Part shown: positions 29,641-31,472 of the stretch, piece by piece
Numbering within the stretch: the stretch's first letter is position 1
Layout: every line of letters starts with the position of its first letter
Assembly: GCF_014359565.1 (NCBI RefSeq)
Contig: NZ_JACIZD010000008.1
Span: 1-64,000, forward strand
DNA from: Immundisolibacter sp.
Lineage (GTDB): Bacteria > Pseudomonadota > Gammaproteobacteria > Immundisolibacterales > Immundisolibacteraceae
Reading direction: 5' to 3'
DNA: 64,000 nucleotides
The notes under the pieces: generated by a model
What the model saw: the letters and a program-made list of their open reading frames with translations, nothing else
Database searches by the model: none
Told to the model about the DNA's origin: nothing
Made by a program: the position numbers and the translations under genes

Positions 29641-29795
29641 TATAGGACGCTGAATAACTCCATCCTGGATTTGTCAGCACCCGCCATCGCAAAAAGTGGT
29701 TTTCCGATGGCTGACAAGATCAGCAGCTTACGGCCGCTGATCTTGGCAACGCGTCCCTGCGCTGCGGGAAACGCTGAATACTTCCGTTTCCTATA
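29641..29795 (+). repeat. Dispersed hairpin element, copy B, MITE-like and longest copy
   Basis: This roughly 155-base element begins TATAGGACGCTGAATA and ends CTGAATACTTCCGTTTCCTATA. The two outer ends are imperfect inverted repeats that share TATAGGA. The centre holds GATCAGCAGCT-tac-GGCCGCTGATC. No coding is seen. Its right end resembles the end of the IS5-family element at 548, so it may be a non-autonomous derivative. It covers the stop codon of the cupin gene. Confidence 0.65.
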
Positions 29796-30252
29796 CGCGC
29801 AACAACCGGGCCACGGCAGGGATTGCGCGCAGCTGCGCCAGCTCCTCATCGGTCGGCAACTGCGGCCGGTCCCGTTCGCGACTGACCACGCACAAAAAGC
29901 CGAGCGCCTGGCCGGCATTGGCATGGAACTGGTGGAAGCATTGCGGACCGACGTACACACAGTCCAGCGGCGCCACATTCTGGACCCGCTCGCCCAGAAT
30001 CACCGACCCGCAACCGCGCAGGATGATCACCGCATGCGGGTGCTGGTGGCGCTCCAGGGTCGAATACCCGCCGGCCTGAATCTCGAAATAGCGCACAAGT
30101 GCATCGAGCGCCTGTTCCCCGTCGCCTTCCCCCAGCAAGGTGCGACGGGTGATGTGCCGATGCGGGCCATCCTCGTCCTTGTAGGCCCGCAGCGGTATCT
30201 GCGGCCACTCGAAGTCACCGCCGCGCAGCACGTGCGATTCGTCGCCGTTCAC
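29791..30252 (-). CDS. Cupin-domain protein paired with the RuBisCO-like protein
   Basis: This 153-residue single-domain cupin has likely metal ligands His69, His71 and His73 in LERHQHPHAVIILRGCG and His107 in YVGPQCFHQFHAN; the usual Glu of cupin motif 1 is not seen. An N-terminal HRHITRRTLLG adds two more His. It overlaps the RuBisCO-like gene by 4 bases. In Rhodospirillum rubrum such a pair belongs to the methylthioadenosine-isoprenoid shunt, where the cupin removes methanethiol from 1-methylthioxylulose 5-phosphate. That role is only a hypothesis here. Its TAG stop falls inside the end of a dispersed repeat. Confidence 0.82.
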   Translation of the reverse strand: MNGDESHVLRGGDFEWPQIPLRAYKDEDGPHRHITRRTLLGEGDGEQALDALVRYFEIQAGGYSTLERHQHPHAVIILRGCGSVILGERVQNVAPLDCVYVGPQCFHQFHANAGQALGFLCVVSRERDRPQLPTDEELAQLRAIPAVARLLRV

Positions 30253-31472
30253 CTGAACACCTCGTCCACCACACGACGCAGTGCCGCCGCGCCGCGCTCG
30301 AGATCACCCTGCGCGTACAGGCTGCCGCCGATCAGCAACAAGGTATCCGGCCCGTATCGCCCCAGCCAGTGCGCGGCGCTGGCCACATCCATGCCGCCCG
30401 CCGGCGCCGGGAGGCTGGGCCGCAGCGTGCCCAGCGGCCGACGCAAGTGGTCGTTGATGCGCGCGCAGGTCGCGGCTGAAAAATCGAAACGCCCGCCGGC
30501 GTTCGGGTAGATGACCGCATCGGCACCGGCCAGCCGGAACAGATCGCCCAGCACCAGCTGCGGCGCCATGCCGGCGCCGCGTCCGAACAGACTGCCGGTC
30601 AGCGCCGGATGCGCGAGGATGGCCAGGCCGTACTGGTCGCGGATCAGGCGCAACGTGTCCAGGCCGACCAGCCACGGGCTGATCAGAACGCCAAGGCAGC
30701 CGGCTTCGCGCGCTGCCGCCAGACGCTGCGCCAGCAGCGCCGCCGGTGCGGTCACGTTCGGGAAGTAGTGGCTGTTGCCGCCGCTGGCGGTATTGGCCCG
30801 CGTCACCGCCTCCTGACAGCGCGCCAGACGCTCGGCGAACGACGCCGCCGGCTGGTCGGCAAGGCCGTGATCATCCTTGATGATATCGATGCCGCCGCGG
30901 GCGAAGGCCTCGCAGCGCTGCGCCAGTTCCGACGCCGACAGCCCCATGGGCTTCAGCGCCGTGCACAGCAGCGCGCGGCCATGCACCCCGGTCAGCGCGC
31001 GCAGGCCGGCGATGCCATGTCCCGGACCGCCCAGCGCGCCGAGCAGCGTGGCCGGCCAGTCAATGCCGACCACGCGAATTCCCGGTTGCAGGGAGATGTT
31101 TCCGAACAGCAGGTTCAGGCACTGCGGCAGGTCAGCGCCAATGGCGTCCAGACTGTACGACAGCCACGCCTGTGCGCGCCGCGGCCCGGTCTGTTGCACC
31201 GCCTCGACCCGTCCGGCCAGGCGCTCGGCCAGCTCCGCCGTCAGCAGCGATCGCGGCAGCTCGACCGTTTGTTCGAGCGCTATCAGAGCTGCCTTGCCAG
31301 CCGCGTCCGCACCGGCCGCCAGATTCAGTGCGTAGCGCACGCCCAGCCGGCCATCGGCGCGCAGACCGGCCTGGGTCGCGCTGGCCGGCGCCGATGCCAG
31401 TACCTCGTCCTGCGCCGCACCGGCGCGCAGGCGAGCGTTGGTATCGGCAAGCCGACGAACAGTGGCTGACAT
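30249..31472 (-). CDS. RuBisCO-like protein (form IV)
   Basis: This 407-residue protein has the RuBisCO large-chain fold: an N-terminal domain to about residue 135 and then a TIM barrel. TALKPMGLS keeps the first active-site Lys (Lys174), and GGIDIIKDDHGLADQP keeps the carbamate Lys and its two Asp (Lys199, Asp200, Asp201), but His202 replaces the Glu of true RuBisCO. LAHPALTG (His288) and the phosphate-site LLIGGSLY are recognisable. It should therefore not fix CO2. Family members enolise or isomerise phosphorylated sugars such as 5-methylthioribulose 1-phosphate, or act on related substrates. The overlapping cupin gene supports a joint pathway. Confidence 0.9.
   Translation of the reverse strand: MSATVRRLADTNARLRAGAAQDEVLASAPASATQAGLRADGRLGVRYALNLAAGADAAGKAALIALEQTVELPRSLLTAELAERLAGRVEAVQQTGPRRAQAWLSYSLDAIGADLPQCLNLLFGNISLQPGIRVVGIDWPATLLGALGGPGHGIAGLRALTGVHGRALLCTALKPMGLSASELAQRCEAFARGGIDIIKDDHGLADQPAASFAERLARCQEAVTRANTASGGNSHYFPNVTAPAALLAQRLAAAREAGCLGVLISPWLVGLDTLRLIRDQYGLAILAHPALTGSLFGRGAGMAPQLVLGDLFRLAGADAVIYPNAGGRFDFSAATCARINDHLRRPLGTLRPSLPAPAGGMDVASAAHWLGRYGPDTLLLIGGSLYAQGDLERGAAALRRVVDEVFR

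Follow-up and report, generated by a model that had tools for sequence, protein, structure and literature searches.

The methylthioadenosine (MTA)-isoprenoid shunt has been studied in Rhodospirillum rubrum and Rhodopseudomonas palustris, and the chemistry of its steps is described (PMC5893883, PMC4958253, PMC4334135). In R. palustris, work in vitro and in vivo established the RuBisCO-like protein (RLP) RLP1 as a 5-methylthioribulose-1-phosphate 1,3-isomerase, and the cupin Rru_A2000 is the proven 1-methylthioxylulose-5-phosphate methylsulfurylase of R. rubrum (PMC5893883), a step that uses glutathione as reductant (PMC4334135). The genes mtnA (Rru_A0360) and mtnP (Rru_A0361) of R. rubrum are located far from the RLP and cupin genes Rru_A1998 and Rru_A2000 (PMC4958253). 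The genes mtnP and mtnA are also distant from the RLP and the cupin in R. palustris, where a class II aldolase serves a parallel DHAP-type shunt (PMC5893883). Prior work on the shunt in the group studied here was not found among the open-access papers that we searched.

We analyzed a 64,000-nt stretch of DNA of Immundisolibacter sp. (hereafter, the window) that encodes an RLP and a cupin on its minus strand. The RLP gene (30249..31472; 407 aa) presents an open reading frame from an ATG at 31472 to a TGA at 30249, and its start codon is somewhat uncertain, as approximately 40 N-terminal residues are missing from relatives outside the genus. The cupin gene (29791..30252; 153 aa) is likewise open, from a GTG start codon at 30252 to a stop codon at 29791. 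As stated by the original prediction, the two genes overlap by 4 bases: the sequence GTGA (30249..30252, minus strand) combines the stop of the RLP and the start of the cupin, and this overlap probably entails translational coupling. We consider it very probable that this pair constitutes the signature enzymes of the MTA-isoprenoid shunt, with the genes of the pathway on several contigs and with methylthioinosine as the probable point of entry. The shunt was also the reading proposed initially, and it is now well supported by the clade of the RLP, the identity of the cupin, fusions of the two proteins and the remaining pathway genes of the genome.

The RLP matched the Pfam family RuBisCO_large with 69 bits (cut-off of 30 bits) and is the only RuBisCO-fold protein of the genome. 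Its top match among solved structures was 3qfw (E 9e-73), which we take to be RLP1 of R. palustris, with the MtnW structure 2oek far behind (E 1e-35); its nearest named relatives belong to Nitrococcus and other Ectothiorhodospiraceae, and the gene content is in keeping with a gammaproteobacterium. Where RuBisCO presents its carbamylated Lys and metal-binding residues, the protein carries the motif KDDH (residues 199-202; 30867..30878 on the minus strand, as computed from residue numbers), in which His replaces the Glu of RuBisCO and MtnW. In a quick tree of 110 proteins, the window RLP and 3qfw were both found in a clade of 98 rows (support 99) that is separate from MtnW and from remoter RuBisCO-fold rows. 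The motif KDDH or KDDQ was present in all rows of this clade, and KDDE in each of the 12 rows outside of it. The initial assignment to form IV is borne out by this clade and by the match to 3qfw, and the tree, which had been proposed as a check, groups the window RLP with the proven isomerase of R. palustris. On sequence grounds, the protein is a member of the DeepYkr-type isomerase clade of form IV, apart from MtnW and RuBisCO, and we predict that it is a 5-methylthioribulose-1-phosphate 1,3-isomerase.

An alternative function would be that of an MtnW-type 2,3-diketo-5-methylthiopentyl-1-phosphate enolase of O2-dependent methionine salvage. MtnW models were indeed the top NCBIfam matches of the RLP by E-value, but the scores of 166 and 123 bits compare to cut-offs of 409 and 514, the motif is KDDH rather than KDDE and the protein falls outside the MtnW branch of the tree. 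In addition, the O2-dependent enzyme MtnD was not found in the genome by family search, and neither of the two class II aldolases of the genome passed an MtnB cut-off. This function is extremely unlikely. More generally, the RLP scored far below every cut-off of the NCBIfam MtnW and RuBisCO models and lacks the KDDE metal ligands of bona fide RuBisCO (forms I-III); both identities are rejected on the basis of these scores, of the motif KDDH and of the position in the tree.

The cupin scored 30.1 bits against Pfam Cupin_2 (cut-off of 27.2), and its best solved structures were 3ibm (E 1e-41) and 3jzv (E 4e-38), the latter corresponding to Rru_A2000. It is 50.7% identical to 3jzv over 136 aa and 46% identical to 3kgz, and these two structures are 56.0% identical to each other, which is the value given for the proven cupins of R. 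rubrum and R. palustris (PMC5893883). The metal motif ERHQHPH spans residues 67-73 (30034..30054 on the minus strand, as computed from residue numbers). Residues Glu67, His69, His71, His73, and His107 were invariant across 62 of 62 RLP-linked cupins, and Cys121 was conserved in 61 of them. Rru_A2000 possesses these same five residues and shares the HxHxH arrangement without the canonical Glu. Based on similarity to Rru_A2000 over the full length and on the motif ExHxHxH...H, the cupin is predicted to be a glutathione-dependent 1-methylthioxylulose-5-phosphate methylsulfurylase. The original prediction was right to point out the additional His residues and the absence of the standard Glu; its suggestion that these denote a different reaction is not supported. 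Because the same motif is found in Rru_A2000 and in all of the linked cupins, new chemistry is not indicated, and the absent Glu is ruled out as a mark of novelty. Judging from these alignments, the His-rich motif without the usual Glu is a signature of the methylsulfurylase family.

The association of the two genes extends well beyond the window. When the cupin was encoded separately in the neighborhood, it was located directly downstream of the RLP and on the same strand in 47 of 47 loci (window included). In 15 loci, the RLP and the cupin formed a single reading frame of roughly 520-690 codons (L022, L026, L029, L030, L033, L090, L098, L099, L102, L115, L125, L138, L140, L141, and L145). 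Such fusions were mostly found in Nitrospirota, and also in several genomes of the window's own class. They argue strongly, and independently, for a joint action of the RLP and the cupin and, along with the constant gene order, they indicate that the pairing is not due to chance. No earlier report of an RLP-cupin fusion is evident from the titles and abstracts consulted in PMC, whose mostly open-access content makes this weak evidence of novelty. Within the 98-row clade of the tree, a branch of 70 rows contained the window RLP and 3qfw, and its members presented an adjacent cupin (48), a fused cupin (15), or none (7). The other 28 rows formed a sister branch without any cupin; the separation of the two branches has a support of only 82 in this quick tree.

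The distribution of the pair was also observed at two other scales. The cupin was present in all three genomes of the genus and in none of four genomes of the same family (G003-G006), which are incomplete; G003, the one among these that was also covered by the RLP search, lacks the RLP as well. This pattern may reflect acquisition of the pair by the genus or its loss in the lineages around it. Three near-identical loci (L108, L111, and L121) of Gemmatimonadota and of one gammaproteobacterial bin present an mtnA frame directly after the RLP and the cupin; pathway genes are therefore clustered in some lineages, with one of these bins possibly mislabelled.

The linkage with the cupin also bears on the substrate of the RLP. 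Most of it could derive from 5'-deoxyadenosine, which radical SAM enzymes release as a by-product: the RLP would convert 5-deoxyribulose-1-phosphate directly into 1-deoxyxylulose-5-phosphate and leave to the cupin only a minor flow of MTA. Methylthioinosine phosphorylase does accept 5'-deoxyinosine (PMC6302742), enzymes of methionine salvage are promiscuous (PMC6079011), and 1-deoxyxylulose-5-phosphate would be the product expected chemically from the same 1,3-isomerization. However, a sugar devoid of a methylthio group would require no cupin, and a cupin is encoded downstream of the RLP or fused to it in nearly the whole branch. We regard 5'-deoxyadenosine as very unlikely to be the main source of substrate and favor MTA.

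The remaining genes of the MTA-isoprenoid shunt were searched with family models in the whole genome (3.09 Mb in 27 contigs, with a completeness rated at 100%) and were found spread over several contigs. Both MtnA (424 bits; cut-off of 279) and O-acetylhomoserine sulfhydrylase (665 bits; cut-off of 495) are encoded on contig 2. Dxs is encoded on contig 1 (800 bits; cut-off of 466), which rules out that the shunt substitutes for a missing Dxs. The scatter of these genes is normal, since mtnA and mtnP of R. rubrum are equally far from its RLP and cupin. As initially noted, the window contains no MTA phosphorylase or isomerase gene near the pair; other contigs, however, encode MtnA and a member of the MtnP phosphorylase family. 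An unrelated phosphosugar pathway, in which an unusual cupin would catalyze a different reaction, was inspired by the location of mtnP and mtnA outside of the window and by the cupin's lack of the canonical Glu. It has lost its basis with the detection of mtnA and of the phosphorylase, here specifically of methylthioinosine type, elsewhere in the genome, as in R. rubrum and R. palustris, and with a metal motif identical to that of the proven methylsulfurylase and of the linked cupins; we find it very improbable. The genome further encodes, on contig 1 and away from mtnA, a FucA-like class II aldolase that is 51-53% identical to the aldolases of two other genomes (G016 and G021). In G016 (G016:C87; L147:3282-5085), an RLP-free genome of the class, the gene for this aldolase, which is 51% identical to that of the window's genome, overlaps the mtnA frame, and these two genes are likely a DHAP-shunt pair.

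The entry into the pathway appears to differ from that of R. rubrum. The MtnP-like phosphorylase of contig 18 scored 321.1 bits against the S-methyl-5'-thioinosine phosphorylase model NF006599 (cut-off of 223), and 264.9 bits against the MTA phosphorylase (MTAP) model, under its cut-off of 274.85. The genome search proposed by the original prediction recovered mtnA, whereas the phosphorylase is of methylthioinosine type: no true MTA phosphorylase (MtnP), the entry enzyme of R. rubrum, was found, as the contig-18 protein fails the MTAP cut-off. True MtnP is a feature of R. rubrum as the type example and not part of the RLP-cupin core. Among solved structures, the contig-18 phosphorylase is closest to 3ozb, which the PDB lists as a methylthioadenosine phosphorylase and which is presumably the methylthioinosine phosphorylase of P. 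aeruginosa. The contig-18 gene adjoins and overlaps a gene for a hypoxanthine-guanine phosphoribosyltransferase (247 bits; cut-off of 181). On contig 4, beside nagZ, a TRZ/ATZ amidohydrolase (685 bits; cut-off of 540) is similar to the solved MTA/SAH deaminase 4f0r (E 1e-138). The first steps therefore seem, from these family matches, to run through another intermediate, methylthioinosine, than in the textbook organism. The methylthioinosine phosphorylase and the deaminase family were above cut-off in 13 of 13 examined genomes of the class with RLP and cupin. Family matches were also obtained in many RLP-free relatives; because this type of entry is common in the class regardless of the RLP, it may be a background habit of the class rather than a component of the shunt. 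We found no paper in PMC that joins methylthioinosine with the isoprenoid shunt, which is weak evidence of novelty given that the subscription literature is mostly outside of PMC.

From the named genes, their families, the clade of the RLP and the invariant residues, we infer as follows which reactions take place in the organism, in what order, and which residues bind the metal. MTA would be deaminated to 5'-methylthioinosine, which the phosphorylase would split into 5-methylthioribose-1-phosphate and hypoxanthine, the latter being recaptured by the phosphoribosyltransferase encoded beside the phosphorylase. MtnA would then produce 5-methylthioribulose-1-phosphate, and the window RLP would move the carbonyl from C2 to C4 (1,3-isomerization), yielding 1-methylthioxylulose-5-phosphate. 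The cupin, its metal held by the invariant His residues and perhaps by Glu67, would transfer the methylthio group to glutathione and so yield 1-deoxyxylulose-5-phosphate and methylthio-glutathione. The former would enter the MEP isoprenoid pathway, and methanethiol from the latter would form methionine with O-acetylhomoserine. The FucA/Ald2-like aldolase may divert some 5-methylthioribulose-1-phosphate to a DHAP shunt running alongside, similarly to R. palustris. Whether the gammaproteobacterial shunt is a distinct variant seems evenly balanced to us: such a variant would proceed via MTA deaminase and methylthioinosine phosphorylase, return the purine as hypoxanthine rather than adenine, and its RLP may also convert 5-deoxyribulose-1-phosphate derived from radical SAM enzymes directly into 1-deoxyxylulose-5-phosphate.

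A separate observation concerns the sister branch of the RLP tree. In 19 of its 28 loci, the two halves of a split transketolase (N-half PF00456; C-half PF02779 and PF02780) are encoded upstream of the RLP on the same strand, usually directly (L105:4-5119, L114, L139, L132, L134, and others), and such halves were found at 0 of the 62 cupin loci. The operon of L105 comprises an MTR kinase (336 bits over a cut-off of 275), MtnA (425 over 279), tktN, tktC, and the RLP; L114 carries an additional methylthioinosine/MTA phosphorylase and L139 an additional MetX-like gene. This gene content suggests a route of methionine salvage that is not yet described: transketolase would cleave 1-methylthioxylulose-5-phosphate, possibly with a ThDP enamine that expels methanethiol. 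No PMC paper was found that combines a split transketolase, an RLP, and methionine salvage.

The pair of the window is largely ordinary, in that it corresponds to a known pathway whose remaining genes are found on other contigs. Oxygen-independent methionine salvage of this kind, characterized by biochemistry in R. rubrum and R. palustris, is thereby extended to a genome that has no RuBisCO of its own. The lead offered by the sister clade is more surprising than the window pair, whose interest is moderate and comes from the methylthioinosine entry and the fusions. If true, this entry implies the release of a different purine, and annotation could predict the pathway in genomes without a true MtnP.

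Compared with the described systems, the locus shares features with each. The route of P. aeruginosa through MTA deaminase and methylthioinosine phosphorylase feeds the O2-dependent MtnB-C-D pathway; both enzyme families are over cut-off in the window's genome, which, however, lacks MtnD and encodes the RLP and the cupin. In R. palustris, RLP1 (RPA2169), a proven 1,3-isomerase, and the cupin (RPA2170) have consecutive locus numbers, and an aldolase similar to that of its parallel DHAP-type shunt is found in the window's genome. In contrast, its mtnP and mtnA are side by side, it possesses several other RuBisCO-type proteins where the window's genome has only one, and its RLP1 belongs to a different sub-branch than the window RLP, which groups with relatives from Ectothiorhodospiraceae, Nitrococcus, and Gemmatimonadota. 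The shunt of R. rubrum (RLP Rru_A1998 and cupin Rru_A2000) resembles that of the window by a cupin that shares 51% identity and the metal motif, by mtnA and phosphorylase genes far from the pair and by the presence of O-acetylhomoserine sulfhydrylase. It differs in that, by locus numbers, A1999 stands between the RLP and the cupin, which overlap by 4 bases in the window, and in its use of a true MTA phosphorylase with release of adenine, where the genome studied here encodes a predicted MTA deaminase, a methylthioinosine phosphorylase, and a hypoxanthine phosphoribosyltransferase.
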